A stretch of 64,000 bases of DNA from the NCBI RefSeq assembly GCF_003073045.1, contig NC_037590.1:44432296-44496295 (forward strand), given 5' to 3'. This DNA is from Pomacea canaliculata (lineage: Eukaryota; Mollusca; Gastropoda; Architaenioglossa; Ampullariidae). Positions 4,818 through 37,022 of the stretch are shown one piece after another (position 1 is the stretch's first letter; the number at the start of each line of letters is the position of its first letter). Both the position numbers and the translations under genes were made by a program. Under the pieces are notes generated by a model. That model did not search any database, was not told the DNA's origin, and saw only the letters and a list, made by a program, of their open reading frames with translations.

Positions 4818-7800
4818 ATGGCGGATGACACAGCTAAGTAGGATAGCTCTCTTTAGCAATATTTAATTTTTATGCTACTGATTTTAAATAGAATACCAAT
4901 AAATACCAGAATTAAATTACATTACACTAACTATTTCTTTATGGATAATAATCGCAAGTGATTTTATTCTGTTCGAATGAATGAAAGAATATTTGAAAAT
5001 TGTTTATGCTGGATCGAAGAAATATGCATACTGTGTCAACAACTGTAATATTTCATTACGTCTTATAGTATGAGCAATCGCTTGAAAATGCGGATAGAAG
5101 TTAACATTACATAAGATAGAGCTCCAGAAATCAAAATAGCTCACCCAGTCTCTAATGTTCATGCAAATGCAGGTCGATTGTGTTAATATATATAGAAAAT
5201 GTAGTCACATCATTATTTTACTCCTTTTTTAGGGAGGATTTCCCCCAGGATGACCTGGAAACCAAGGAGGCAGAGAACAATGAATTTGTACGTTAAATCT
5301 GTGTGATATATCAAGAAACTAAGAAACTCTTACCATAGTTTAACAAACTTAAATAACAGATAATTTCTGTTTGTGTCTGATACTTAATTGCATAGTAACG
5401 TTGTACTGCAATATCATTGTAATGCACTTTTAAAGACATTGTACTATGCAGATTGTAACACATAATAATTGATTTGACACTAATTAACTTACTTTTTTTC
5501 TTTCCCATCCATCCTTCTCTTTCTCTCCATCTCTCTTTCTGCCATCACTAATTTCAGATTTCCTCCTGCTAAACAAAATAAACAGACAAATTTACATTTT
5601 ATGTAATCCATGTTTAATATGGGATCTTTAGGAGGTTGACACTGAAGAAGAAAATAAAGATGTAGACATGGATCTTACGCGACCAGATTCAGAAAAAGGT
5701 AATACATATACAGTCTGTAATATTATTTTTTATTTGGTTTTACTTTTTTATAACTTTTTTGAAAGAAGCAGGATGAAAAAAAATGAAAGTAAAGCAAGAA
5801 ATGTTTTTACACATTGTGCAACCCGAAAAGTTTTTTGGTTGTGCAGTGTGTGAAATTATTTGCAGAAAATAAAAAATATTGTTTAAAATTAACATTTAAG
5901 AAAATTGATTTTAGGCCTTTTGTATGTAAACTTTTTAATTATATTGTTATTACAATGGGTAAATCATAAACTAGGTTTTTTTTGTTTGCTTTGCAAGATG
6001 TGTTCTTCAGGTCTGCAGTTAACACAGCATTTAATCAAGAAAGAGTTATAATACCTGTATATTAATATATGATTAATCTCTGTACAAAGATCCTTTATAT
6101 GTGTTCATGTATACATAGATATAGGAATAAAAAAGAGAGCAAAATATCAAATGAAAAAGATGAAGAATAAGTATTGTAACAGGCTTTCTTCCATGTTCTC
6201 AAGGAAACCCTCTTTCTCGTCCACCCTCTGCCACAAGTGTATTGTCAGCTACATCAGCTAGGCCACCTAGTGCACATCGCTCAGAGTCAGCCATTTCTGA
6301 TAAGTCTGGTGGTACCAAACAACCAGGATCAGGTACCTTAAACAGGCCAGATAGTGCAAATCAGTTAAGGTCAACCATTTCTAGCAGACCAGGTAGTGCA
6401 AGCAGGCCAGGATCATCCACGTCTAACAGACCAGGTAGTGCAAATCAGCCAAGATCAGCTACTTCAGTGAATAACATGCTGTCACATTCTTCAGGTCACT
6501 CAGCTTCACCTACTAGTAGCCGCCAAGGTTCAGATTCAGGAAGAGATTTTCACCCGTCGGTTGAGGTCATAGAGAATGGAGCTGGAGCCACACAGAGAGA
6601 GGAAGCAGTGGAGCAAGACAAAGGTGAGAATGTACAGATGATAGATAATAGCAAGAGAGAGAGAAAAGGCTGAAATGTTGCATAGAAAGTGATGAACAAA
6701 AGAGATCGATCTCAGCAGAACTTTTAATTTTATGAAATATCTGTTCATTGACTGGTATGTAGGATACTCTAGTTATGTTTTGTCATTTGCATCATTATCA
6801 TTTACAAGTGTCCTATTCAGCAGACTCCCACCCACCACTGATAGCTAAAGTATTGTAAACTTGCTGCTGATTGGGCTGGAACTCACCACTCCATTGATCA
6901 GAGTTGGTTTTTTAAAGCTGTTTACATAGTTTGCATAGTGAGCTAGGAATACTGTAGATATTTCTATGTAGAAATATGTGTAGTATAAACTAACCTATGC
7001 ACAATGAAGGTCATCACAGCTAGTGAATCATCAGCATTGAAATGCATTAGTCTGGGAGATTTTGCAGCCCAATTTTTAAAGAAGTAAGCAAAGAATAGGT
7101 AAAGAGTACAGGCAAAAGCCATAGGGGCTACTTTCATTGTTAGACTGATATCTTTTTTATTTTTGTATCATTCCTGCATGCTTTTATATATATATATATG
7201 GTCAACATTTATAACTTGAGTGAATGTTGCATTTGGATACTTTGAAAAAAAAAAGGTACAAAACTGGTTTTGTCACAAGAGAATGCGCATAGCTGTTTGA
7301 TCTTACTGTCAAAAATACATGTACTATCATACACAGATTCTACAGCTTACTTTTGTACAGAAAATAAATTTAAAGTCTGTATATGCCGTTAAACTAAAGC
7401 AACAAAATATAAATTTAGAAATGAATGTAATACTCAGGTTTTTCTCAAATAAAAATAAAGCAACTAAAAAGCACATTACAACATATTCATTCAAATATTC
7501 TTATCATGATTTTCCTACCACGCACTCAACATGTATATTCTTCATATTGTGTCAGACTGTTGCAATCTTTGTCTTCCTTCTTGATTCTTTTTCTTGTAAT
7601 CCTGTGATCTTTGGCAAACGGATATTATAAAAAACCAAACCTAAACAGAAAATTTTCCTCAGTATTACATAACATTTCATACAGGTAATAATAATAAATG
7701 CAAAATTTGTAAAGCACATACTCACACTCCTAAGGAGCATGCTCTTAGCGCCTATGAACTAGAATGAGACATGGACAGTATACGAGGGACAGGAAAACAA

Positions 7801-10800
7801 ACAAATAACATATGAACTATAAAAAAATAAACAACCATACTAAACAAAGAATAAAATCAAATACAGAAAACGCAAAGAGGACCAAATAACAGATACAGAT
7901 TTCTGTAGCAGCCCACCTCAATTTACATAATCTTACAGAATGAAACCAACAGTAGTCTAATTACAAACTCATCTCAACTCATAATATCTATTCTGTTAGG
8001 ACTTTACCAAAATTATTTCAGGATTTAGCATGCAAAAAGGAAGACCAATTCAAAGATGAGTTTCCAAAATAATCCAACACAACTGCAAATATTAACCCTA
8101 CTTTTTTGCAGTTTTTATACTGTTCTCTTTCAATGATATGGTTCTCTAATTAAAAAAAAGTGTATGACTCATAAAGAACACATCTAACAAAAGTTACTGG
8201 ACATCCTCCACTGTACACATTAGTCAGCTCAAAAGCTTAACCTGAGCTTTGTAACTAACCCCAAAGTTGAAGAAGTATTTGCATGTCTTAGTCTTGGTGC
8301 CTTTTCTGTTACACTTAGTTTCAGCTTAATTGGTTTTGAAAAACAAAAGTGGTACAGATAGGTAAAGTTCATCCTTAACCTTTACAGGTCATTAGCGAGT
8401 GAGGTGTTAGAAACCTCACTTTTCTCAGGGCCACTTTTTCATGAGGCTAGTGCCTATCTCCTCTCCCTCACTGTCTTACCTTGCCCAACCCTTTATGGAG
8501 TCAGGTACCCAATCCTGGCAACTGGTTCGACTTGGGGAAGTTTACTTCACTAATTGGGAATTGAACCAGTACGCTATATGTTTGGACGCCAGTGCTCTAA
8601 TCCCTTGGCTATCCACTTCCATTGGTTTTAGAAAAATGGTACAGATAAAGAGTACCAAAGCATAATGCTGTAGGGGCAGTGAACACAGTTCGCTGTGTTC
8701 AAGGAACATTTTGTGGAAGGTGGAGCCAAACTCTCTTCTACTGCCATCTTGATTCTGAAAAATCAGGTAACCATTCCTGAATGCTGGATGGGTAGGAGGA
8801 GTAATTCAGTCACAGGTCAAAGCTGGTCTTGAGCCAGTGGCCTTCTAACCTGCAGTCATGCATGAAGCACTTGGCTAGCATGTCTTTAGAGATACAATGA
8901 GAATGTGATGAAAAAAATTACACATTTGAATCGTTTGTGTGTTTTATCATTAGTTGAGTTGATATGTTTAAAGTTTGTCTCCATCTTTACAGGTGGCACT
9001 CAAACACCAGCTGAAGAGGAAGAGCCTGATTTGCCTATGATGCCTGCTGCAGCTGCTGAACTTCAGCATGGGGGTGGTAGGGGTGGTGGGGGTGGTGGTG
9101 GTGGAGACAGTGATGATGAAGATGAAAGTGAGGATGAAGAAGCTAGTGAGAGTGAAGAGGAGGGGGAGGAGGAGAGTGAAGGAAGTAGCACCGAGACAGA
9201 GCTAATTGTTCTGGACCCTGATCATGTAAGTGTCAAATGTTCTAATGAAGCATAATGGTTTAGAAATTGTGTTCTAACTTCTCTCTCTTCCTTTTTAATT
9301 GTAACATATTCATCATGTTTTACTATTGCACTTAATGTACTGTAGAGATGAAAGGTATTTCTGTTTTGTTATTAATATAGTGTAATCATGTGGATGAGGA
9401 TATGGCACTATTATATGCATACTATTTGCAAACACTCTTAAAAGAGTAGGTTTGTTTGCATCAGATTTGAATATGAACAGTTTGAAGAACTAAGACTGGT
9501 TTCACCATTTGGACAAAGAAAATGAATTGCTGTAGAATTCTGAATACGCACAGTTTGGAGTACTACATAAAAGAAGTCTTCAAGTCGTTGGATTTCCAGA
9601 CCAGGGTTGACACAGCTTCCATAATACTTTGTTCTTAATACTTTGCATCTTTCCTACAGCCTCTGATGAAACGCTTCCAAGCTGCCTTGAAAGCACACCT
9701 GGACAAGCAAAGTGAGCGGCTTACTTTGCAGTTGAGGGAACTCGTGAGTTTATATACCCCCTTTTTTCTTCCTTTCTTTTAACACTAACATTCAGCAAAA
9801 AGTATGTTTCACTTTTCTTTAATGTCCATTTGCATTATCAAACATATCTAGAATGTTTTTGTATATATATATACACACACATAAAGTGAGTTCATAAAAT
9901 TCATTATCACTTCATTCTTAGTGCTTAATCATGCCTGTGTATGTGTCATATGATATATTTTCTTTCAATATCTAGGATGAGTCCCTTCGTGTTAGAAAGA
10001 AGGAACGTGAAGACCTTGGAGTGGACCTCTATGGCGTGCAGCAAGAGCTGGCTCGTTACCAAATGATGCTGGAGCGCAACCATGATGAATTTTCACAGAA
10101 GAACCAACTGCGCCAACGTCATGAACAGGAACTTGTGGATGTGCGTCATGTCTATAAAGATACACAGCTGACAGTGAACATGGAAAAGAAGAAGGGTAAG
10201 ACTATTCCACCATTTAGATCTGTGAAAGTCATTGGCAGAGAAACATATGTTTGTGGGAGACGCTGGTTTATGTGCCATGATAAGTCTGATGATTAATGAC
10301 TCTTTGGCGATAGAGTCTGTGTGCTGTCTTCCAGTTCAGCCAACTATCCATGTCACAAGACTTTCCCAGTGGGAATAAAATGGGAGCAAGGATGGCAAAT
10401 GGGGTCACAAGTCACAGTTAGAGAATTATTGGAAATTCAAGAGTTCATCAAGAATTTCTGTCCGAGTTGAGAAGAAAGCCAACAGTTGGGTGCTCACCTC
10501 ACTGCTTCATTGTGTTCGATAGACTGTCTAATGATGAGCCAGAACTTTGGTATAGTCTTAATCTTTGAGGCAGTTTGCAGCGAGAGTTTGCTTTGTTGTG
10601 TGGTCTTACTGCAGGTGACAGGCAAGCATAATAAACATGGCCCTATAGGGCTTGACTTGAGAATGACATCCATAGCGTATAAAAGCCCTGGTTACAAACT
10701 ACATCAAGCTACAGGTTTTTGTCAACATTATAGATTTTCACACATTGCAGCCATGTTTTTTTTCATACAAATGTGTGTACAGGAAATGCCATTTGTGATA

Positions 10801-13800
10801 GGGTTTATAAGTTTTACTATTTGATGACACATCTGAGGATGTGTGACAATACAGTTGTTTTTTTTTCGCAAGGACAATAAACTGTACAAGGGAAGGAACT
10901 CTGTTGTCAAAACCTGAATCATTCATTTATCCATTCATCCTTTGACTGGTACTGGTCATTAAGGGGAACAAATGTGGCATCTGACCAGCCTGCAACTTGG
11001 ACAACGGTCTTTTCTCTGGGCTTATATACATGGCAACACTTATCTGCCTCTCCAAGTGAAACATATGGATTGACCTAGTCGAGAACACACAGGCACTGAG
11101 TGTTAGCTAGGACTTTCATCGTGGAAAGCCTTTGCCTGCTGGCTCCATGTTAGCATTATGATTTACTTAAGGGTTTACTCCCAGTTACATGTTGAGATAT
11201 ACACCTCCCTCAACTATGCATTTTTTCATTCTGGAAGAAATTAAGTAAACATAGGACTCAGGGTAAAAAAGCTTTTTTGTGTTTAAATTATTCTCTTTAA
11301 GTCTGTTTTTAGGGATACCTTTACAGTTATATTTATTTTGTTTTTTATTTTTGACAAAATAAAATGTTCCTTCTTTTGAGTATGGATAACCCATTAAATA
11401 TGCTGTCAACATTGAGTCCATAATAATGTATATATTCTAGAGACCACAGGGGCAACAAACTATTTTCACCATGTCTAGGGCACAGAAAGTGGATTACAGA
11501 GCCAAGCCCTATATGTTTCTGCCACACTTAAAATCTCATAATAAAGCTGAAGATGCCATTTAGTAATGATAGACTCCTTCTACCAATGGAACAGGATTAT
11601 GTTGGGATTAACTTAGAACTGTCTTGTTCAGGTACTAGAGTCTGGTATGTCTGTAAAGGAACATTATGGCCTTCCAACAGGTGCTGAGCTGCAAGGAGAA
11701 GTAGAGAATCTGGCTCTACGACTCTTCTATATGGAGAATGCCAAAGACGATGTGCGGTCAGATATAGCTGTCATGCGACGAGCTGCAGAAAAGGCAGAGG
11801 GGGATGTAGCAAAAGCAGAAGCTGCAAAGCAAAGGCAGGATCTGTTTGTAGATCGGTTGGTCGAGCAAGTTGACAAGTTGAGGGAAGAAGTTGCCATGTA
11901 TGAAGCACAGATCACAGCCCAGACAGAGGAGACACGAGCAGCCAAAGATGCCCTCATGGAAGCTAACATGGAGATGGAGGTCAGTTAAGAAGTTGTTGGA
12001 CTTTTTTCAATGTAGAGCAACCACAAAGACAATTTTTTGTCCCCTGTAGAAAAGTTAATCTTATTGTGAACTTGGATTAAATCATATGACAAGAACCATC
12101 ACCTATCAGTTTCTCAATAAAGATTTGTTTCTGTGTATGCATATATATAATTACTAACTAAAAGTAAAAAGAATGAGTGACACTAGCAGCTAGCCATAAA
12201 TTGTTTAATGTATTTCATCTTCATTTCAGTTATTACCTTTATATCACAAATGGCAGGCACAATCTTATATTGCAGGCTATTGGGGTGGAGAAGAAACAAC
12301 TGTTTCAACAGTGGAATTCCAGTCTTATCGGCATGCGCCGTCGAGATGAAGCACATGCAGCCATGCAGGAGGCCTTGGAGTAAGTCAGTAACATTTAGGT
12401 GTTGATTTCTGACAGCAGTCCATAAGCATAGTTCTCAGCTCCTTACTTGTCTTAACCTGTTGGGCAAACTTCTTGATTAGTCTGATAGGTTTTTGCTCCG
12501 AAGTTAACTTTCTAGTAATAGATAACTTGTTATAGTGCATAGAAAAATGTGAAAATTCTTATCATTGTTTTTAAAGTTACATCAACAGAAATGTTTAGTG
12601 CATCATATTTAAGACATTTTAATGATGTTGTTCATAATGATGATGAAAAAGAACACTTAAACTAAGGCTACTAAATTGTTTGGTGGTTACGTCCTCAGTT
12701 CCCATATTTCCAGTTTTGGGGAATTATTTGTAATGCAGTAATTCATTACAGTAAACAGGAGCAGAAGATTTTGTCACTGGAGATGGAAATGGAGGGTTAC
12801 CAGAGGTCTATTCAAAAAGAGCAAGAAACCAATGAGAAGCTGACTCTGATCCTAGCAAAAACAGAACGAGAAATTGAGGCTGTCAAAAAACAACTGGCCC
12901 AGTGTCATTCACGTTTTGATGCCCTGAAAGCTGAGTACACCGTCTACACTCGTATGCTGCATGAGACAGAGCAGTCTCTGAACAGAGCAAATGCTGTAAA
13001 TATTTATTTCTGTTTTGTCTTTATTCTTTTATTTATGCATTTTGGGGGAGGTGGGGGAAGATTTGCATGCAAATATTCCTTTCTCAGTTAAGCCATTTAT
13101 AAATTATTTCATCTCACTAAGCAGCAGAATTTCATTCTACATGAAACAATTAATGCAACGATGCCAAATGATTGGGTAGTCTTCAAATGTTTACTTTCTG
13201 AAAGAGAAAACTAACAATTTTAATTCTACTGTCTACTTTTTCATTGTTCTGAAACCTAGCTACTCTTTTATCAAGATTTTTACACAGAAAGTGCTGCATA
13301 GACAAGGAGTCATAGATAATGGTATATATGACTGTCAACAGATATGCCTCAGTGTTTTTGCAAACATGCATGCTTGCTTTTGTAAACTAAATAAATTTTA
13401 GTTGTTATGTTACTTAGGCCTGCACTAATTCTAATTGTACACAGGACAAGACACTGAGGGAACATGAATTAGATGCACTGAGGAAACAGACTGAGAGAGA
13501 ATTTCAAGCAAAGGTGTCCCTGGAAGATCAAATCATGGAGCGCCTTCGTACACAGCTGACATTGGATAAAGCTGCCCAGTACTCCAAGAAACTGACCTTT
13601 CAGACTCGAGAGCGTACCAAGAATGTGGTATGTTGCTGTGAGAGGTGATGTGTGGCTGTATAAATATGTCAGGGGGCTCCACAATTACTGATGCTACTCA
13701 GTATAATGAAGAGAATTTCAGGCAGTCTAAAATTAATACTATGTTTTGTTTATGTTTGAAACTTTAAAGTCCAGCCTCGAAACCATTTCTTTAAGAACTA

Positions 13801-16800: not shown

Positions 16801-19800
16801 ACTGGAGTCTGTAAAGGAGGAAAAGGAACGTCTGCTTAACAGCCTAGTTGAGGCTGAGTAAGTTGCAACACATTTTTGTCAACATTCCCCTTAATATTTG
16901 TGAAAATTCCTTTTTTCACAATCTTTATAAGGTAAAGTTAAGTGTGCTTTGCAGTGAAAGTACTTTCAAGGCAAAGCACATTATTGGGCAGCTGCTCCAA
17001 ATCTTGTACAATTACTTTGGTCACCATCAATTTTAGGATGCTACGAACTCTTTTCTGCAGCACTGAAGCAGAGCAAGTATTTTGGTTTAAGCATGTGACC
17101 CAGCATGATACTCTGTCTCAAACTGTTCTTCAGTGGTTCAGTGCCAAGGTGGACAGAGGAAGAATTAGTTGGCAAACGTGCAAAAAAATGGGCTGGTTGT
17201 TTCATGCAGGACCTGCTGACCATGGATTGCAGGATCTGTCAGCCATTGCATCTTTCCAGCTGTCCTTCACTCACCCATTCTAGTACTAATAATTGATCAC
17301 TTGGTAGTAGCCAAGGGATATATGTATGTGTATGTATTGGAACCATATGCCACAGTTAAGGGGGGACACTAATATTTTACTTGAAATCTTTTTTGTAATT
17401 TCCAATGATATTTTCTTCTTCATACGCAACAGACGTCAAATCATGCTTTGGGAGAAGAAAACTCAACTGATGCGTGAGACAAAAGCAGCAATAGACACAG
17501 AGGTGGGACAGGGGGAGATGAAGGCTATGAAGTCCGAGATTCACCGCATGACACTGCGCTATTCGCAGCTGCTGAAGATGCAGGAAAAGATGATTCAAGA
17601 CATGGAAAAGAGTGTGTCGAGGTGGGTGATAATAATAATAATGAGGATTTATATAGCACCTTTCTAAAGATTTGTTCATAGTGCTGTGCATACATCATAC
17701 ATAGTCTAAATCATCTACAACCATGCACTCATATTTGCATATAACAGACACACTTACTTCTACAACATATAGTCACTCATACACAAAGTAAATCACAGAC
17801 ACAGGTATGCATTCTCATGGTTAGGACGGGGTCACAGTGAAGTCATCATTCTGAAAAGATGTGTCTTAACAAGGCTTCTGCTTACGCAAAAAATTGCGTA
17901 CAGTACGCATTAAAAGTTCGGAGGACCCGTTCAATTTTCGTCAACGGGGTCCCTTTCAAATTTGGGCGAAGAACAGGGACCCCTTAAAAATCTGAAGAAG
18001 GGGTCCCTGGGACCCCGAAGAATTTAGCCTTAGCAGAAGCCCTGGTCTTAAGTTAAGAGTTAAAGGTGGTAAGAGAATCAGAGTGACTGGTGCACCGTCT
18101 GATCTGTACTTAAGTCTGTGGGTAAGATGCATAAAGCAGGCTTGATCCATAAAATAAAGAACAAAAATGCCCTGTGACAGAGTATGCAGAGAAAGGTTGT
18201 TCTAGGTGATACAGGTGAGTACACGTTAGCATGAACAAGTCAGAAGAATGCCGTTTTCTGTTGAATTGAGATCCAGCCATATTTAATATTTGTGTTTTTG
18301 AGTCAGTAACTAGTCTTACTTTGAGAGAAAGAAGGAGGGAGCATTCCAGCATTCCTGTTCTTACCTCTCTGGCATGTACATTTTAGGAGAGACACAATTG
18401 TCACAAGAGGAGAAGCACAGTCTAAACTGCAAAAGAAAATCCTTACAAAGGGTTCATTTGAGAGACAGATGGCAGAACTCCGCAAAAAAATCAAGACCAC
18501 AATTCAGGTAAAAAAAAATCCTACCAGAAATGGTTGACATATCTGTGTCTGCAGCTTTTGCAACTTTTCTTTGGTTGCATCCTGTGCCAGCTTGAAACTT
18601 ATTTTGAAAAACTGCCTAGGAATCTGCAATGAGGATAAACTTTATTGTGCATTAATGTCCACTTAGGATGCAAATGATTGTGATACGGAGATCCGGCAGC
18701 TGCGAGAGCACCAGATGGAACTGGGCAAGCATCTGGAAGAGAAGCAGGTCAACTGCCAGACTCTACAGTCTTCTGCAGAAACATTGGATGGTGATGTTCA
18801 GCAGATGCTGGAGCTCCGGCAAAAAGTAAGATTTTTAGGTCTGACATGTTTCTTGAAGAGCCATGTCCATTTCTCAGGCATGGCAGGCAGCAGGAAAGCC
18901 CATGAAGTTTGCCAACAGAATTTTATTTTGTGGTCTTTCTATTGTGAGTTTGTGTCTGTTAAATTTAATGTCCGTTGAGAGCTGAAGATTCTACCTTCCT
19001 ACGTACAGAGTTTGTCCTTGGAAGGCAGAGAGAAGGTGGGAGGGAAACGTTCTTTAACCATCCCAGCTGTCTCTCTTGTTGGTAGAGTGGACAGCATGGT
19101 GTAGTGCTTGGTGTACTTTTTTGCATGGCACAAAGCCGAAAATCTAAAGCTCTTCATCTTAATGTCCAGTTCTGAGGTGGAGCATTTAGTGGTGCATCTA
19201 TGTGTGGACTGCATCCATCAGTTTTGTTGGGAAACTGTTTTTTTTCTTTTCTTTGTGAATAGTGTCCTGATTTTTTGAAAGAATGATATAAGCGTGTGCT
19301 CATTCACCTTTGTTTGAACAAGCTTAACCTTCCAAAGGCTTAAGAAATGTCTTGTACAGGATCACAAAGCAATAATCTTGAAACCTTAAACCTTATGGCA
19401 AAGGACAACAGCATCATGAAAACCGAAATAGATTTTGTAAACATACCAATATAAAATAATACTTGTCAGTTCTTATTACTGTCCATAATGCACTATATTT
19501 GTCATTACTCAAGTAGCATTAAATATGACTATGGTGTGATTGTGCAGCATTTGTACTGTACAGCTTTTGAACGCATGTTTCACAATTTTCTGCTGGCAGA
19601 ACCTAATGGACCTGTTAACAAAGCAGCAGCGCATGAAGTATTTGCAGCAAGTGAAGGAAGGTCGCTACACCCCAATCTGCCGGACAGAATCAGCCATGCA
19701 GATTGAGCAGGGCAAACAGGAAGGCCGCCTCCATGCCCTGAATGCCATTGTTGATCGTCTCAACCAAGAATTCCCTTATGCTCAACTTTCTTTGCGTCTT

Positions 19801-19851
19801 GCCACTTGGGCTTTGAGCTCCAGGATTGTTGCAGGAGAAGAATCAACATAA
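4818..19851 (+). CDS. CCDC40: CCDC40, ciliary 96-nm ruler coiled-coil protein, complete (19 exons)
   Basis: Exons: 4818-4837, 5233-5287, 5632-5698, 6204-6623, 8993-9225, 9660-9743, 9976-10195, 11681-11979, 12276-12379, 12752-12995, 13445-13627, 14015-14260, 15531-15744, 16373-16542, 16766-16857, 17433-17621, 18387-18507, 18667-18825, 19600-19851. All have GT-AG borders and phases add to 1,124 codons with stop (about 1,123 aa; human is 1,142). Landmarks shared with vertebrate CCDC40 are [57 protein letters not shown] and QVKEGRY. The N-terminal 265 residues are low complexity, with RPGSA-type repeats at about 90-135 and a Gly run followed by an Asp/Glu block. The remainder is coiled coil. With CCDC39 the protein sets axonemal 96-nm spacing and anchors inner dynein arms and the nexin-dynein regulatory complex in motile cilia. 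Exon 1 has a weak donor (AA|GTAGGA), the least certain border. Confidence 0.94.
6290..6460 (+). repeat. Coding repeat: RPGSA / SRPGS units in CCDC40 exon 4
   Basis: Imperfect tandem units encode [28 protein letters not shown], at the DNA level aggccagatagtgc/agaccaggtagtgc. The unit is about 24-36 bases. It lies in the disordered N-terminus, outside the conserved coiled coil. Units of this kind vary fast by replication slippage. Confidence 0.75.
7680..7770 (+). repeat. Interspersed repeat tail in CCDC40 intron 4
   Basis: aataataataaatgcaaaa, then gtaaagcacatactcac and ctcctaaggagcatgctc. This resembles 3' tails of short interspersed elements with a (TAA)n start. A palindromic ctcctaaggag lies inside. 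It sits in the 2.4-kb intron 6624-8992, which is otherwise AT-rich apart from the SINE at 8365-8622. Confidence 0.4.
8365..8622 (-). mobile_element. tRNA-derived SINE, family A, copy 1
   Basis: On the minus strand an A-box-like GGATAGCCAAGGGATTAGAG (8596-8615) is followed about 30 bases on by a B box GGTTCAATTCC (within 8556-8567). This is the RNA polymerase III internal promoter of a tRNA-derived SINE. The body and 3' part (ggtaagacagtgagggagagg, then tctaacacctcactcg) align by eye with a second copy at 55795-56090 on the plus strand. It lies inside CCDC40 intron 4, antisense to the gene. Confidence 0.75.
15440..15515 (+). mobile_element. LINE-like 3' tail in CCDC40 intron 12
   Basis: cctattgggattaataaagt followed by a short repeated (tcattg) tail is the form of many invertebrate LINE 3' ends. 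It finishes just 15 bases before the acceptor of CCDC40 exon 13 (15531). The rest of intron 12 (14261-15530) includes a C-rich block at 14850-15110 that I could not classify. Confidence 0.4.
16150..16200 (-). mobile_element. LINE 3'-end remnant in CCDC40 intron 13
   Basis: Read on the minus strand, GCCGTATGCTCCTTGAGGAG then TAACAAGAA matches the end of the LINE copies at 46150-46440 (CCTATGCTCATCGAGGAG) and 52250-52290. It is very short. The rest of intron 13 (15745-16372) shows nothing further. Confidence 0.45.
17627..17705 (+). repeat. Short interspersed repeat tail in CCDC40 intron 16
   Basis: ataataataataatgagg, then atttatatagcacctttcta and catagtgctgtgcatac, just after the donor of exon 16. 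It has the same layout as 2315-2412: a (TAA)n run, a tatagc-cct core and an aagtgct-like end. Confidence 0.4.
17871..18043. mobile_element. MITE-like element with inverted ends
   Basis: A 10-bp perfect inverted repeat, GGCTTCTGCT (17873-17882) and AGCAGAAGCC (18032-18041), bounds about 170 bp. Both flanks carry tcttaa-like sequence, a possible target duplication. Inside are mutually complementary blocks around ggggtccc and gggacccc, so the element can fold on itself. There is no coding capacity. It sits in CCDC40 intron 16 and is probably a non-autonomous DNA transposon. Superfamily unknown. Confidence 0.6.
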
Positions 19852-20803: not shown

Positions 20804-22537
20804 CTATACTGGAAAGAATGCTTTATCGGGAATAGGGCAGTTGATGTTGGCAAGGGCTTGTTTTCTGGACTGTTCCTCTGAGCGAGGACACGGCCGGATC
20901 AGTCGGGACTTTTCTAAAGTCACACCAAATCCTGGGCGGTCTGGCAGGTCGATGAAACCATCCTTGGGTAGCGGTTCGTCAGGAAACAGACCTCCGAAGT
21001 AAGGCGTGATCTTGTCGGCGTTTGGACTGAGGTTGATGAACTCGGCCACGGGGCAGTTGGTGAAGGCGTATTGCAGATGGTATGAATAGACGCTGGACCC
21101 GTGCGGGATCACCAGGACGTCCTCTGCCGCTGCCATGGCAACGACCCGCCGCGCCTCGGTCAAGCCTCCCACCCACGTGATGTCTGGTTGCAGGATGTCC
21201 ACGCAGCGGGAAGAGAGCAGCTGGCGGAAGCCGTAGCGCGTGTACTCGTGCTCACCCGTCGTCAGCAGCACGTCGCACCCACGCAGAGCTTCGCGTACCT
21301 ACACAGTACAGAACTCTATAATGAATATTGTGTATATCTTCCATAAAAGACACGACTTTGCGTACGACCTCTCATCCTTGTCCGTTCTTCATATATGCGC
21401 GCATAACAACAATGTTATATAAAACCTGTGTGTAGCCGGCGTAACTGTCGGGGGGAAGATACTCCTCTATCCACTTCAGACCCAAGGGTTCCAAGCGACG
21501 TGCCAGGCGGGCCGCATACGGCGCAGTCAAGGCCATGTAGCAGTCGAGCATGAGCGGAAATTCTGGACCGACTTTGTCCCGCCAGTTCCGGAAGAAAGCC
21601 ACGTTCTTCTCTAACCCCGCGTCGCCCTCTGCCGGCCCATATGGGCATGCAATCTTGGCGCCTACAAAGCCCATTTCCTTGGCCAGGTCAGGGCGTGCGG
21701 TGGTACAATACACTGGCAACCTCTGCTTGGTCTTGCCTCCCAGAAGTTGGTAAACTGGTTCACCACGTATCTGAAAGATCGATGCAACAGCAGAGTAAAC
21801 AAAAAAATTATCTCAAAACTAACAACTAGCTAACAATATTCAAACAAAAATTATCACAAAAGGCAAACAGTCCATAGTGCATGGCGAGAAAATTGTGATT
21901 AAAAAAAAAAAAATAGTGGAAAGTTCATACATACAGTGGAGTATAAAGGGTTTGCAAAGATCCGACGTATGGGGCAGAGATGAGGAGCAGAAGAGACACG
22001 ACTGACAAGGCAAATCCATACCAGGCAATGGGGAAAAAACAGTGCCTTTGCTGGAAAAAGCAGCAGTGTGACAGCGGTTTTGCTCACCTTGCCCAGGAGA
22101 TCCCAGAGAGCCAGATCGACAGCGGAGATGGCCTGTAAGGGAAGACCCTTGCGGCCATAGTTGAGGGTGGCCCGAAACATCTGGTCCCACATGCGTTCCA
22201 CGTCGCGGGGGTCACAGCCTTCCACGAAGCGGCTGAGGTGGCCCTCAACCAGCTGGCAGCCCGCCACCCCTCCGATAGTCACCCCCACTCCCACACGTCC
22301 CTCTTCGTCCTCCACCTCCACAACCAGGGTGCCCAGAGCGTTGATGCCCCAGGACTTTCGCGAGGCGCGGTACTGCGGGTAGGTGGCCATGGGGCAGGCG
22401 ATTGGCGCCAGGCCACCGTCGATCCAGTGGTCGTCTGCCACGTCATGACAGTCAGCTCCCTGATTGCCTGCCGCAGATGCTGTCTGGGTGTAGGCTCGCA
22501 CGTACTTGATGCGCGGAGTGGCGCGTGTCTCGGACAT
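20804..22537 (-). CDS. L-rhamnonate dehydratase, enolase superfamily (three coding exons)
   Basis: Minus-strand exons 22088-22537, 21426-21770 and 20804-21298 give 150, 115 and 165 codons, all phase 0, about 429 aa (bacterial RhmD about 401). The ATG at 22537 starts MSETRATPRIKYVRAY and follows an acceptor (ccaacag) four or fewer bases upstream, so a 5'UTR intron is likely. Hallmarks of rhamnonate dehydratase are HWIDGG, SWGINALGTLVVEVE, ARPDLAKEMGF and PHGSSVYS. By-eye alignment gives Mg ligands Asp226, Glu252 and Glu281, and the catalytic pair Asp304-His331 with His282 nearby. All are present. Known family members dehydrate L-rhamnonate to 2-keto-3-deoxy-L-rhamnonate. No signal peptide is evident, so it is probably soluble. 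The middle donor (GTTTTA) is weak. It may have been gained from microbes, but the introns show it is a settled animal gene. Confidence 0.88.
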
Positions 22538-24477: not shown

Positions 24478-25381
24478 CAGTGGTACCTCGACATACGAGT
24501 GCCCTGACATACGAGTGTTTTGAGATACGAGCCGCCGAGCGAGCGATATTTTGCTTTGAGATAAGAGCAAGATTTGAGATACGAGGAATCGCACACTACA
24601 CCGCTGCACACGACCCCAACATGCGGGGCGGATGTTGGGGTCGTGTGCAGCGTCTAACAGTTTCTCCCACCTCAGACTACACCTCAGTCTGTGTGCTTGT
24701 TTCCCTCGTTTTCGAAGCATTTTTGATAAGTTGGGTTCGCGTTTTTTTGCTTTTTGTACATTTACAAAACATTATCACATTTATTTTTGTAACCATGGGT
24801 CCGAAGAAGACTTAAGATGATGTCTATTGAATTAAAGCGCGAAATCGTAGAAAAACATGAGCAAGGTGTGCGAGTAATTGACTTGGCGAGGATGTACGGG
24901 TGTAGCACATTAATGATATGTACTGAGCTTAAACAGGAGTTGATAAATGGTACAACGCCAGCTAAGGGCGTTACAATAATTTCTAAGCTCCGGAATTCTC
25001 TCCATGAAAAGATGGAGAAACTATTGATTGTGTGAGTAACAGAGAAGCAGCTTCAAGGAGGAACCTTAACACAAAGCATCATGTGTGAGAAGGCACGAGC
25101 GATTTACGGTGATTTGCTGAAGCAGATCCCACACACTTCCACAAACAAAGAATTTAATATGTTTTTATAGAATATGTATTTGTTATTCATAAATAAATGT
25201 TTCTTCTTGTAAATACACTTTTTCTTATTCAAAAACACTTAACAAAAACAGCTGAGGTGGTGTTTTGGGAGCTGGAACGGATTAATGGCATTTCAATGAA
25301 TTTCAATGGGAAAAATTGTTTTGAGATACGAGCAATTTGACATACGAGCAAGGTTACGGAACGAATTAAACTCGTATGTCG
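24478..25381 (+). mobile_element. Tigger/pogo-like DNA transposon, internally deleted and 3'-truncated
   Basis: The left end, after a TA dinucleotide, is CAGTGGTACCTCGACATACG. Subterminal repeats of the form (a/g)TACGAG follow. The right part mirrors it (gagatacgag, gacatacgag, actcgtatgtc) but loses its last dozen bases next to the ACTC microsatellite. At 24795 the sequence reads MGPKKT followed by a stop. Beginning at 24817, IELKREIVEKHEQGVRVIDL then ARMYGCST matches the helix-turn-helix DNA-binding start of Tigger/CENP-B-type transposases. The DDE catalytic region is absent. It is a dead, non-autonomous copy. Confidence 0.85.
24602..24652. repeat. Perfect 21-bp inverted repeat (hairpin) inside the Tigger copy
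   Basis: Arms 24602-24622 and 24632-24652 are exact reverse complements (cacacgaccccaac versus gttggggtcgtgtg at the core) around a 9-base G-rich loop gcggggcgg. All 21 pairs match, which stands out in a decayed element. Confidence 0.9.
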
Positions 25382-25512
25382 TATGTCACTCACTCACTCA
25401 CTCACTCACTCAGACTTTTTTATTTGTCACTGTCAGATTTGAACACACCACCTTTCAGTCTTCAGACCTTGTCGGTAGCCACCAGGCTATACAGCCGTTA
25501 GCAAACAACGTG
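25382..25512 (-). mobile_element. tRNA-derived SINE with (TGAG)n tail
   Basis: On the minus strand an A-box-like TAGCCTGGTGGCTACCGAC is followed by a B box GTGTTCAAATC at about 25434-25444. The element ends in a (TGAG)n tail, the actc microsatellite at 25387-25412 on the plus strand. It abuts the truncated right end of the Tigger copy, which suggests insertion there. Confidence 0.6.
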
Positions 25513-26334
25513 TCTAAAGTTCGTGAAGAAGTCAAGTTCGCCGTTTACAACAAAGAACAAATTCGCTGAACCGAGACGCACACGCCCCAGAACCGGTGAC
25601 GTCATCGATAACGAGGCTGCTGTTAACGAAGATGACTAGTGCACGACGGACCACGAACACTCTGCTACTAGGTGCCTCCAACTGCCAGGAACACACACGT
25701 CATACTCAATGGAGTGAACAAGATCGGAGTGACAGACGGCAACAACCTACCCGATCCTCTCCCCTTCAGACATCATTGTACGCGTGGTCAGAGTTGCCTG
25801 CCCAGTCAATGGAGGACATCGAAAACGGACAACAGTACCCTACAAAGAACACCAACAAGAAATAAGTGACAAGATGGCCGGTCCTCCACAGTTCATGACA
25901 ATTGCTATCCCATAATGTCGAGGACTTTGTGTGGACGGCAAGACACAAGCAAGACAAGGGAGAGAATAAGTTCCACTGACCCAGTGACTACGCGACACGA
26001 GGTGTCCGTGCTAACGGTCACCATGACACAGCACGGGACTCACCCGTGAAAATATTTCACATCTTCAACTGCGACATCGACGGTTTGCTCGTGAAAACAC
26101 TATCCTGGCTTTGTACAAAGCATTAACGTGTTTGTTATTGTGTCTTACAGACATTGCTTGACGTCAGCAGTACACTGCAATGTTTCTCTGACTTCCAACG
26201 ATACTTCAGTCCTGCTTCTACACTTACATCGCAAGGAAGAGCTGCCGGCCGATATCCTTGTTTTAGTAAAAAAATGTATTTAATAAGTTTTTGCATAGAC
26301 TGCAGTGTACGGTTGACAATTTGATTTTATTGCA
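25513..26334. other. Unassigned non-coding stretch
   Basis: An ORF at 25596-25865 gives a low-information, Ser/Thr/Gln-rich product with no recognised family and no splice support. I see no gene here. Confidence 0.4.
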
Positions 26335-26500
26335 ATTTGACACCGAGTTTAACGAGACAAGTTCTGGACTTAAACCCACAGATGAAACGCAGGGTTCGGA
26401 GACAGACCAGGAGGAGATCGATCCTCGGCCCAGAACCGGATCCGCTGGGGTGGTATGGTTGCGGCACTAGGAGGACAAAGAAGACTAAAAAGATAAGTGG
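26335..26500 (+). mobile_element. LINE (non-LTR retrotransposon) 3' end, C-terminal tail fragment
   Basis: The translation TRQVLDLNPQMKRRVRRQTR then RRSI, followed in another frame by QNRIRWGG, matches the C-terminal tail of the LINE at 51826-52300 (TRQALGWNPQGRR). The same tail is present on the minus strand at 46150-46440. It is decayed and carries only the last part of the reverse-transcriptase ORF. A (GT)n run follows at about 26507-26524. Confidence 0.65.
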
Positions 26501-28390
26501 GTTTGTTTGTGTGTGTGTGTGTGTGCTGCTTCCACCATTTTGTAAGTCTATGATCATGTTGAAAGCACAGTTACATCTGGACTTACAGGCCTACCACAGA
26601 GACGTTAATATTCGAATACCACTTCTACCTACCGCAGCGTTCTCATGGCAACCTACTATTTCTACCTACGCATCTGGTTTTGTAACATCATTTCTCATCT
26701 CCATCTCTTCCCAGAAGCACATTTTCCCGAGTTCCTCGAACATCTCACCGGAACATGGAGATGAAGCTGAGTTTGTAAGGTGGCCAGTGACAAATCACTG
26801 TCATGTGACCCCCAGCTTTCATGCTCGTTGACAACGGTGACCTCGCCACCAGCTCTGTCCATTTTTCACGGTTCCTCAAAGCCCCATGGGGAGTTAATCA
26901 CACAGCGCTGTCCATACTTTCCATGTATCCTCCTCCCTGTATCTTTCCTCTTCTTCTGTCTTCTCTTCTCCGCTTTCCTTATTGTTTGGGCATCGTGGTG
27001 TTGATTCCCTCTCCGATTTAAAACAAATGATATCACAGATGGTTGGCCTCTTCGAAAGTGAGACGTTTGCGATTTGTTTGTGGCCGTCGAACCTTTGCAG
27101 TCAGATGTTCCGAAATGTTTGTAAAGGAGACATATACCCACGGAGCTGGCGCAATCACAAAGACATTTCTCAGCGAGAAAATCGCTCTTGGTGGAGATCA
27201 GTGGCGGGCAAACAGTTGAAATGCGCTCTGGGAGAGACAGGTTGCATCAATTCGGCATTAATGTCCTCCGCCGTCTTAACTACAAAGACAGGCTGGAAGA
27301 TGTGTGTGTATGTGTGTGATGGAGGAAATGTGTATTTTTGATCACCTTTCAGAGACCGCTGGACACAGGATCTGTTTTGTCATGTGAAGTATGTCTTTGC
27401 TGTGAATGTGATTTGTGAACGCTCAGGTTGTTACAGTTCTGGGCGTGTGTCTCTGCATGCGTGCGTGTGTGGTGTGAGTGTGCTCTTCTTTCTCTTTTTC
27501 TTCTCTTGCTTCTGTCGTCAAGGAAGAATTTTTTATAACTGTGGCGTTAGCTTAAAGAAGTGAGAGAGAAGGGTTGTCTGAGGAAGGGTTGTAGTAAAGG
27601 AGGACATTGACTGTATGACACAAACAACGCGATCACCCACGATGCTACCGCGGCTGCAGGGCTGCGGGTCGAAGAGGACAGCTGGATGATGAAGATAATG
27701 TATGGTCGACGTGGGACTGGCTGTCCCAGCAGACTAGGCCAGGACAGTGACAAACTTTTCAGAGATGCGGAGACAAAGAGGGGTCTGAGTTTACCGAGAC
27801 CTCCAACTGACTGGCCTCGCTTGCCCCCGGAGAGACAGGCCACTGTGTGTGTGTGGGTGCGTGCGTGCGTGAGAGAGAGAGAGAGGGTGTGTGTGTTCTA
27901 GCGAGTGAGCGTTCTCTCTCTCTTTCAAGTCTCACTGGAGGGGTGCACGCATGTGTGTGTAAGAAAGAGCAAGATCGCATTAAAAGAAATCCGTGATGAC
28001 GCCCAATAAATAAATAACTAAATCATTATTCACCTTTCGATTTGTAACCGCATAAAATTCTAGAAATGTGGAAAGGGATGGACTGCGGGTCAGCATTCAT
28101 ATGAAGACTGTTTTTCTACTCTCACCATCATGAAAGTGATCACTTGTTAGGATTTTCGAAACAAGTGAGATCACATCAGAGTGTTTGAAAAATATCAGTC
28201 TCATCAAAATAACCGACCTGAGGTCACTTGTAGGCGGCATCTGGATGCACCATCAAACACATGAACAGATGGCTGGCTTTGTGCTTACAAACACTACCTG
28301 ATGGAACATTACATGTGGAAACACAGTGGCTAGTCAAGCAGTGTCTATCATGCCTTTGGCTGAGTTTGTACTGAGCAACGCAAGCACTCG
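26501..28390. other. Gene-free stretch with simple repeats
   Basis: No supported coding sequence. Simple repeats include (GT)n at about 26507-26524, tgtgtgtg and gcgtgcgt runs followed by (GA)n at 27844-27884, and ctctctct at about 27913-27924. Confidence 0.5.
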
Positions 28391-28395
28391 TAACC

Positions 28396-28571
28396 AAGCT
28401 AGCTATGTGCTAGCATAAATGCTAGGCATGGCCAGGGTGAACAGATAAACAAACAAGCTAGCTATGTGCTAGCATAATGCTAGGCACGGCCAGGGTGAAA
28501 CAGACAAACAACAAGCTAGCTATGTTGGTAGCATAATGCTTGGCACGGCCAGGGTGAACAGATAAACATGA
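28396..28571. repeat. Three-copy tandem repeat, 58-59 bp unit
   Basis: Copies begin at 28396, 28455 and 28513. Each contains aagctagctatg, tagcata, atgct-ggca and ggccagggtga. The unit contains palindromic GCTAGC blocks (gctagctatgtgctagc in copies 1 and 2). It is non-coding. Confidence 0.9.
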
Positions 28572-29079
28572 ATAAATGAGCGAAGTAGTTTACTGGCATG
28601 GACTCCTGTAGCCTACTGGCCGAGAAGTGGCTCATCATGTCTAGAGTACGTCCGTGGAAAGCGGAATCAAAAGCTCCCTCCGCCACATTTACATCTGTAA
28701 GCTTTAAATAGCTCCTTATAAATCAGGTAGCACTTTTTATTTTTACTGAAAAGAATGGCAGGATGGAGAGTGGGGGTGGGGTGGGGAAGCAGAATCCTAT
28801 CCACAGGCCACAAACCAGTGACCATAATGCAGTAACTTCCAGAACACGAAGCTCTACCCTTATTTAAGGGTGACTAATACATTTACTTTTTGCATTATCC
28901 TAACATAAAAAATTCCATTTAAAATGACAGAAAAACTGGATAAAAAATAAAAATAGTTAAATGAACAATGTCAGTGACCACTAACTCAGATGAAGTGATG
29001 ATCCAGACATTTTAGAGTTGGCTAATATCGATGAGGTCTTGGCTTGCATACATTAGAATGCTAAAATTTTGATTGCCCG

Positions 29080-29570
29080 AGGGTAGTCACGTGACCGTGG
29101 TGACAGGCCTGGGGCGACCTACCCGGTCGTTAAAATATGCGGCGTTCAATCGGAGCGCAGTTGAGAACCGTGAAGAAATGGGTGATTTTACCAGTCGGAA
29201 CACCACGTGAACCTATCAGACGCGCGCGCAGCAATCAGCTGCCACCTTGGCCCAGTGGGCCGCGGGCGGACCGCAAGTCAAACAAGTGTGCGCGCGAGGA
29301 CCGCGCCAGTGCACGTGCGACGCCGTGCGACACGGTGCGCTAATGAGGCGGTCAGCCTCGTGCCGCGAGGGGGCGCCCGTGCACCACCTGGACGTCGGGC
29401 TGTTGTGCGGACGTCAAAAGTTGCAGCAGCTCGTCGAACGCGCCGACCTCGGGTCCGAGTCCCCCGATGTCCACTCCGTTTGTGCACCCACCCAGCCTCA
29501 AACATCCTCAATAGCCTCCCTGGCAAAAGAGAAGTGGTGCGCGGAAAAATGACACGCCGGAGTGGCATGA
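29080..29570. promoter_or_regulatory. CpG-rich island, candidate promoter or first-exon region
   Basis: This GC-rich, CpG-dense block sits in otherwise AT-rich DNA. It carries a perfect palindromic E-box GTCACGTGAC at 29086-29095 and a second CACGTG at about 29204-29209. Several overlapping ORFs on both strands are expected by chance in such composition, and none resembles a known protein. It may mark the start of a gene or non-coding RNA whose body I could not identify. Confidence 0.45.
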
Positions 29571-30433
29571 AAGTGATGCGCCTTCACACACCAGTTGGCA
29601 ATCATTGACTAGGTTACCGCAGCTTATTCTTCCATTGTTGGAGGAAACCAGCGAGCAGTTTGCCTCGCCCCCCGCTTCATATATGTCAGACTGAGGTACG
29701 AGCGGACCCACATTGTGTGCCGCGCGTGCGAGAGAGAAAAGAAAATAAAAGAGAAAAGGATAATCTTTAAGGAGTGAATAAAACTTACATTGAGAAACCC
29801 TCAAGAAAAGAAAACGTATAGTTCAGAATAAACGCAAAAATAAAACGGTATCTTAGAGAATGTCGATGCCAGATATCAGATATCAGATATAATTTATAGC
29901 AAATTGTATTGAAACAGATATTTCAATGGTGTGAAGAGACACGCTGGGTCATTAGTGTCAAAGTGTCAAATGATACAGTAAATTATTTAAACACCTACAT
30001 ACAGCAAGGTACACGACAGTAAAACCCAGACATTATTGTGACTGTCTGTGGTACAGTTTGTTTTAATATACATTATTTTTCATAAAATAAGTAAACTATA
30101 AGCTAAACTACATCGTCACTGTCATGTTGTCATTTTAAAATTTGGATGACATGTAGATGTTAAATTGCTACATATTTTTAAAAAGTTGATTTGTCAGAGC
30201 TTTCTCTAGCATCAATGCTGTTAAATAAATAGATAGTTGATGTGTTTGCAAAAAATATGTCGGACTTCTCTATTATATTTTATGTGAGATATGTTTGCCA
30301 AATTCCACAGCTGGTCCCATGCACAAAAAAACAAATATCCAAATTTCCGAACCACAGTCCGAACACTCCACTGCCACAACACATCTTATGTTTCCTTCCG
30401 ACCATTCAATTCCCCTCCCCCCTAAAAAAAAAA

Positions 30434-30530
30434 TCTCCAGTTGAAAATGACACCAAGTCTCCACTTGAATATAACACAAAGTTTCCACTTCTAGGTAACA
30501 CAAATATGTCCACTTGAAAGTAACACAAAG
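30434..30530. repeat. Four-copy 24-bp tandem repeat
   Basis: Units start at 30434, 30458, 30482 and 30506. The consensus is approximately tctccacttgaa-ataacac plus aaag. Translating it gives repeated SPLEYNTK-like units, but no surrounding gene supports coding. Confidence 0.8.
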
Positions 30531-36722: not shown

Positions 36723-36922
36723 ACTACTATACGTTTGCGGTGGTGAATCATGACGTGTTTTAGCTTCGTGGTGTGATTCAACCAGGTTCAGGCCAGAGGA
36801 TAACGACTCAATACACTCTGGCCACCTTTCCCATTAAACACCAAATTCTGAACTGCGGAGCAATTACCTAATTGCTAATCAATAATAAGTTTCACTCCAA
36901 ATTAGTACGTGAATCCGTGTTT

Positions 36923-37022
36923 NNNNNNNNNNNNNNNNNNNNNNNNNNNNNNNNNNNNNNNNNNNNNNNNNNNNNNNNNNNNNNNNNNNNNNNNNNNNNN
37001 NNNNNNNNNNNNNNNNNNNNNN
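36923..37022. other. Assembly gap (100 N)
   Basis: Exactly 100 N bases, the usual placeholder for a scaffold join of unknown length. Adjacency of the DHX9-like sequence on the right to the repeats on the left is not proven. Confidence 0.98.

Follow-up and report, generated by a model that had tools for sequence, protein, structure and literature searches.

The analysed window is a stretch of 64,000 nucleotides of the Pomacea canaliculata genome (contig NC_037590.1, positions 44,432,296 to 44,496,295). On its minus strand, at positions 20804–22537, it carries a gene assigned to L-rhamnonate dehydratase (RhmD), composed of three exons and coding for a protein of 429 amino acids that ends in FFPV. 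Exon 1 (22088–22537) opens with the ATG at 22537, encodes the capping domain and the start of the barrel, and closes at a GT donor (GGGCAAG/GTGAGC); exon 2 (21426–21770) contains the metal ligands D226 and E252, and exon 3 (20804–21298) contains E281, H282, D304 and H331 together with the TAG stop. Intron 1 (21771–22087; 317 nt, GC 39%) and intron 2 (21299–21425; 127 nt, GC 36%), on the same strand, are both GT–AG introns in phase 0. A preliminary description of this DNA had proposed a three-exon gene with two coding introns, and the exact coordinates, the joined reading frame and the phase-0 GT–AG introns all agree with it. An acceptor-like TTTACCAACAG lies immediately 5' of the ATG and marks a putative intron in the 5'UTR. 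The coding sequence has a GC content of 60 per cent and a GC3 of 70 per cent, the corresponding values for six sampled adjacent reading frames being 40–51 and 38–57 per cent; we regard the high GC3 as weak evidence of origin.

The plus strand carries, in an open frame (12675–13088), coding sequence of a CCDC40-like gene, for which the PDB chain 9fqr_Dz, named Coiled-coil domain containing 40, gives a match at E = 6.3e-10; the three PDB matches of this frame all belong to the same family. Another plus-strand open frame (19540–19851), with no Pfam match, terminates some 1 kb away from the stop codon of RhmD and, from its strand and spacing, is presumed to be the 3' portion of the same CCDC40-like gene. 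Elsewhere, the window contains a minus-strand open frame of 492 amino acids (580–2055), serine-rich by eye and with no Pfam match above the cut-off, and a reverse transcriptase domain (PF00078; 48173–48883), presumably a retrotransposon remnant.

A second match to RhmD, with a broken reading frame, was found on another contig, C3. It forms part of a larger match between window positions 10128–36922 and C3:34249637–34271579, which includes pieces at 81–95 per cent identity; the best stretch (9,487 columns) is 98.2 per cent identical and differs at 57 mismatched and 111 indel columns, many of the indels lying, by eye, in homopolymers. In the window the match ends at 36922, directly before a 100-N scaffold gap (36923–37022), and on C3 it starts 0.8 kb past another 100-N gap; at its other end on C3, no run of N was found up to 34294999. 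A block of about 6 kb in the window (24478–30459), which begins 1.9 kb 5' of the RhmD start codon, has some 270 bases in its place on C3, and a clean terminal inverted repeat was looked for in this block and not found. A true paralogue on C3 was rejected as unlikely, given the broken frame, the excess of indels over mismatches and the N gaps at or near one end of the match. It is most likely an assembly duplicate, the overlapping ends of two contigs having been assigned to different chromosomes; a genuine segmental duplication of recent date is less probable but deserves to be kept in mind. The other end of the C3 match, free of N, is a poor fit to a simple stand-alone haplotype contig. A leftover haplotype as the source of the copy would fit the heterozygosity of P. 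canaliculata (1–2%) and the removal of alternative contigs shorter than 200 kb from the assembly, both given in the excerpted text of PMC6129957. The match may point to a fault in scaffolding or in the handling of haplotypes.

Two separately assembled contigs thus carry the RhmD locus, which makes contamination unlikely. A bacterial-like protein and a high GC3 are what bacterial contamination or an assembly chimera would produce, but the AT-rich spliceosomal introns, the CCDC40-like animal neighbour and the matching locus on the second contig lead us to reject this reading, which the preliminary description had also dismissed, as extremely improbable. The RhmD gene is native to an animal chromosome.

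The snail protein scores 508.1 bits (E = 1.5e-152) against the NCBIfam model for L-rhamnonate dehydratase (NF011968; cut-off 393), the match spanning nearly its whole length; the runner-up, the galactonate dehydratase model, reaches 146 bits, under its cut-off of 311. Pfam recognizes the N- and C-terminal domains of the enolase superfamily, and a PDB search gave matches down to E = 6.6e-133, the seven best of which include several named (L-)rhamnonate dehydratase. A chance resemblance to RhmD is, we consider, excluded. Individual residues were compared in an alignment of 81 rows, composed of the snail protein, three PDB chains and the proteins of 77 of the best 80 bacterial loci (of 294 relatives). 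The metal ligands D226, E252 and E281, at the ends of barrel strands, are invariant across the 81 rows, as are the H331–D304 pair, H282, H31 and R60. Snail H331, D304, H282, H31 and R60 align with positions 331, 304, 283, 35 and 61 of the 2p3z chain; their counterparts in the numbering of the Escherichia coli enzyme are presumably the H329–D302 dyad, H281, H33 and R59, and we take H31 and R60 to be substrate-side residues. At six columns that are at least 97 per cent invariant in the rest of the 81 rows the snail protein deviates (V91, A191, S259, V317, L355 and E394), and none of these is a named catalytic residue.

With the curated cut-off of NF011968 passed and the catalytic residues kept, the identification as L-rhamnonate dehydratase is well supported, activity and substrate being predicted from the family model and the residues. 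The preliminary description had arrived at the same enzyme, and the five catalytic residues on which it relied (D226, E252, E281, D304 and H331) are all present. It had also set the gene apart from ENOSF1, the animal L-fuconate dehydratase, which is likewise an acid-sugar dehydratase of the enolase superfamily. This common superfamily is what a paralogue of ENOSF1 would explain, but ENOSF1 is a separate gene of the snail genome, on contig C10, where it matches 4a35, no L-fuconate dehydratase model is among the 10 NCBIfam families reported for the snail protein, and snail RhmD is not an ENOSF1 orthologue; this reading is rejected as having next to no probability.

Relatives were sought in the PDB and by a pattern scan that covered 84,980 species of bacteria and archaea. 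The scan gave 381 pattern matches, 294 of them relatives, and the best 80 were kept. The closest among these best 80 of 294 is a Gemmatimonadota protein (65.5% identity over 397 columns), followed by proteins of Acidobacteriota (61–64%) and Chloroflexota (58–61%). In a scan of viral contigs, four stretches fitted the pattern and none was a relative. RhmD is sparse even in the phylum of the bacterial locus L015, where a match (E ≤ 1e-120) is present in 3 of 396 genomes, that of L015 included. In the four genomes examined, the best match beyond the RhmD group has 40 per cent identity. The snail protein is like bacterial RhmD (EC 4.2.1.90; NF011968) in its catalytic residues and near full-length match, and is 58–65 per cent identical to the enzymes of the Acidobacteriota/Gemmatimonadota/Chloroflexota type. 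Unlike them, its gene has eukaryotic introns, belongs to no operon and stands on a long branch of its own; the C-terminal tail is about 20 amino acids longer, and the six near-invariant columns are changed. Identity to the PDB chains is 53.7 per cent for 2oz3, 47.8 per cent for 2p3z and 47.6 per cent for 3fxg, the first two of which we take to be from Azotobacter and Salmonella. The third is from the fungus Gibberella zeae, according to the excerpted text of PMC3197473. Fungal L-rhamnonate dehydratase (LRA3; PDB 3fxg/2p0i) is also a eukaryotic RhmD with identical catalytic residues, yet the one fungal chain compared is more distant from the snail enzyme than the closest bacterial proteins.

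Gene neighbourhoods were listed for eight of the best 80 bacterial loci, and rhamnose genes were confirmed by Pfam in two of the eight: L008 has an alpha-L-rhamnosidase, and L010 has an L-rhamnose mutarotase adjoined by two SDRs and a metallo-beta-lactamase (MBL)-like protein. Locus L011 resembles L010 by eye, and L009, L014 and L015 contain, again by eye, sugar-ABC-transporter-like genes; no clear rhamnose gene is among the listed neighbours in L017 and L020. An amidohydrolase with the motif FGSDWP occurs in four of the best 80 loci (L030, L034, L036 and L050).

Pathway partners were searched for in the snail genome exon by exon (440,159,624 bases in 24 contigs), a procedure by which split or short-exon genes can be missed. 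The preliminary description had proposed to look for genes of rhamnose dehydrogenase, rhamnonolactonase and KDR aldolase (KDR, 2-keto-3-deoxy-L-rhamnonate); no KDR-aldolase candidate or MBL-like lactonase was seen, SDR matches were weak, and a fuconolactonase-like gene was found. The fuconolactonase-like gene, of the amidohydrolase-2 family, lies on C11 (13956918–13959591; positions 6919–9592 of L139), with exon ends set by eye. Its joined exon pieces, a partial protein, score 101.8 bits against the L-fucono-1,5-lactonase model NF052480, below the cut-off of 400, and its last exon matches PDB 4dlf. Snail matches to the two SDRs of the L010 cluster are short pieces of 28–54 per cent identity. 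The exon-by-exon search gave no match to GH78 alpha-L-rhamnosidase (PF17389), to the rhamnose mutarotase RhaM (PF05336) or to the MBL-like lactonase (with the L010 protein as query), an empty result for the last of these being no proof of absence. HpcH/HpaI (PF03328), presumably the family of the KDR aldolases, has a single match in the genome, CLYBL-like (citramalyl-CoA lyase) by eye. On C5, a gene has an exon that matches FAHD1 (E = 1.3e-37) and, more weakly, the L-2,4-diketo-3-deoxyrhamnonate hydrolase 8gsr (E = 2.9e-11), and two more places of the FAH family are present, on C5 and C4.

RhmD enzymes have side activity on L-mannonate, L-lyxonate and D-gulonate, and one of these might be the substrate in vivo of a snail protein that keeps the fold and active site of RhmD. 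Such a substrate would suit the snail-specific changes in near-invariant columns and the lack of a rhamnose-specific partner in the GH78 (PF17389), RhaM and HpcH/HpaI aldolase searches; a score that singles out the RhmD equivalog model, together with the retention of H31 and R60, speaks against it, and we hold it to be unlikely.

With L-rhamnonate as substrate, the proposed mechanism is based on the chemistry of the enolase superfamily. Mg2+ would be held by D226, E252 and E281, a general base would abstract the proton at C2 of L-rhamnonate, and the H331–D304 dyad and H282 would take part in the beta-elimination of the 3-OH that yields KDR. Because no KDR-aldolase candidate was seen, KDR would most likely enter the native L-fucose route. 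By our derivation KDR and the corresponding L-fucose intermediate differ only at C4, and therefore oxidation at C4 should, on stereochemical grounds, convert KDR into the same 2,4-diketo acid as that formed from L-fuconate, which a hydrolase would split into pyruvate and L-lactate. The likeliest role of snail RhmD would be to feed L-rhamnonate into the animal L-fucose route. It is possible, at a tentative level, that a bacterial RhmD was grafted onto an ancestral animal L-fucose route (a fuconolactonase-like enzyme, a C4 dehydrogenase and a diketo-acid hydrolase), and that dietary plant L-rhamnose would in this way be converted to pyruvate and lactate, the last steps proceeding without gut bacteria.

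The rhamnonate dehydratase route has been described in fungi (excerpts of PMC7532622 and PMC3197473) and in bacteria (excerpts of PMC13406643). According to the excerpted text of PMC13406643, mammalian L-fuconolactonase is molecularly unknown; and bacterial FAH-family hydrolases are reported for the diketo acid. Two points of these excerpts tell against the proposed route: FAHD1, a mitochondrial protein for which that text gives no activity on the diketo acid, is judged implausible as its hydrolase, and they present HSD17B14 as the mammalian L-fucose dehydrogenase, strict on the C2–C4 configuration and therefore a poor candidate for rhamnose oxidation. In another snail, Achatina fulica, the crop metagenome is reported to contain GH78 rhamnosidases (excerpts of PMC3486852), and gut bacteria could, by analogy, be the source of freed rhamnose.

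Two trees were built. The first contained 44 of 88 rows, including two outgroups, the 44 omitted rows being Burkholderia-group near-duplicates by record title; the second contained 28 rows, after eight Verrucomicrobia/Planctomycetes rows, Salmonella, both outgroups and five proteobacterial rows had further been dropped. The snail protein joins the Verrucomicrobia/Planctomycetes clade in the first tree (support 96/91; clade stem long, 1.09), and is sister to the Acidobacteriota/Gemmatimonadota/Chloroflexota group in the second (98/98). Its own branch is long in the two trees (0.45 and 0.72). The groupings put to the clade tests were chosen once the first tree was known. A clade of snail and Fusarium obtained p-AU values of 0.030 and 0.031 in the two trees, each with one, long-branched, fungal row, and this grouping appears disfavoured, though not strongly; a clade of snail and L009 was not rejected in the 28-row tree (p = 0.107).

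The preliminary description had suggested a transfer and a phylogeny by which to check it. In a comparison of bacteria with one fungus, snail RhmD does group with bacterial RhmD, but the clade that it joins varies with row sampling (44 versus 28 rows). Transfer from bacteria is favoured by these trees and by identity (65.5% to a bacterium versus 47.6% to the single fungal chain), the donor clade not being resolved. On this basis a bacterial origin of the gene by transfer is plausible, and the acquisition, if it was a transfer, is probably old. Alternatively, an early eukaryote or an ancestor of the animals may already have had RhmD, which then survived patchily, with no transfer into the mollusc line. 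The long private branch, the lack of a nested position among bacteria and the two introns would be expected of such a gene, and an ancient gene lost from most animals would look identical to a transferred one; yet the identity values point the other way, as does the disfavoured grouping with the fungus (p-AU 0.03), albeit with one long-branched fungal row, and we consider this history rather doubtful. Our preferred reading, to which we give a probability of about 0.6, is that P. canaliculata possesses a working RhmD, taken from a bacterium by the snail lineage or by an older animal ancestor, and that the introns were gained later. In the open-licence literature we found no paper on rhamnonate dehydratase in molluscs or snails or on its bacterial origin in animals, and a search combining RhmD with horizontal gene transfer gave only off-topic papers, as judged by listing. 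Public annotation may already label similar mollusc proteins.

The lactonase-like gene on C11 is a lead toward the L-fuconolactonase that is unknown in mammals according to the excerpted text of PMC13406643. If snail RhmD is functional, it would be a case of one acquired gene extending an existing animal route, and a plant-eating invasive snail may handle a pectin sugar with an enzyme of its own.
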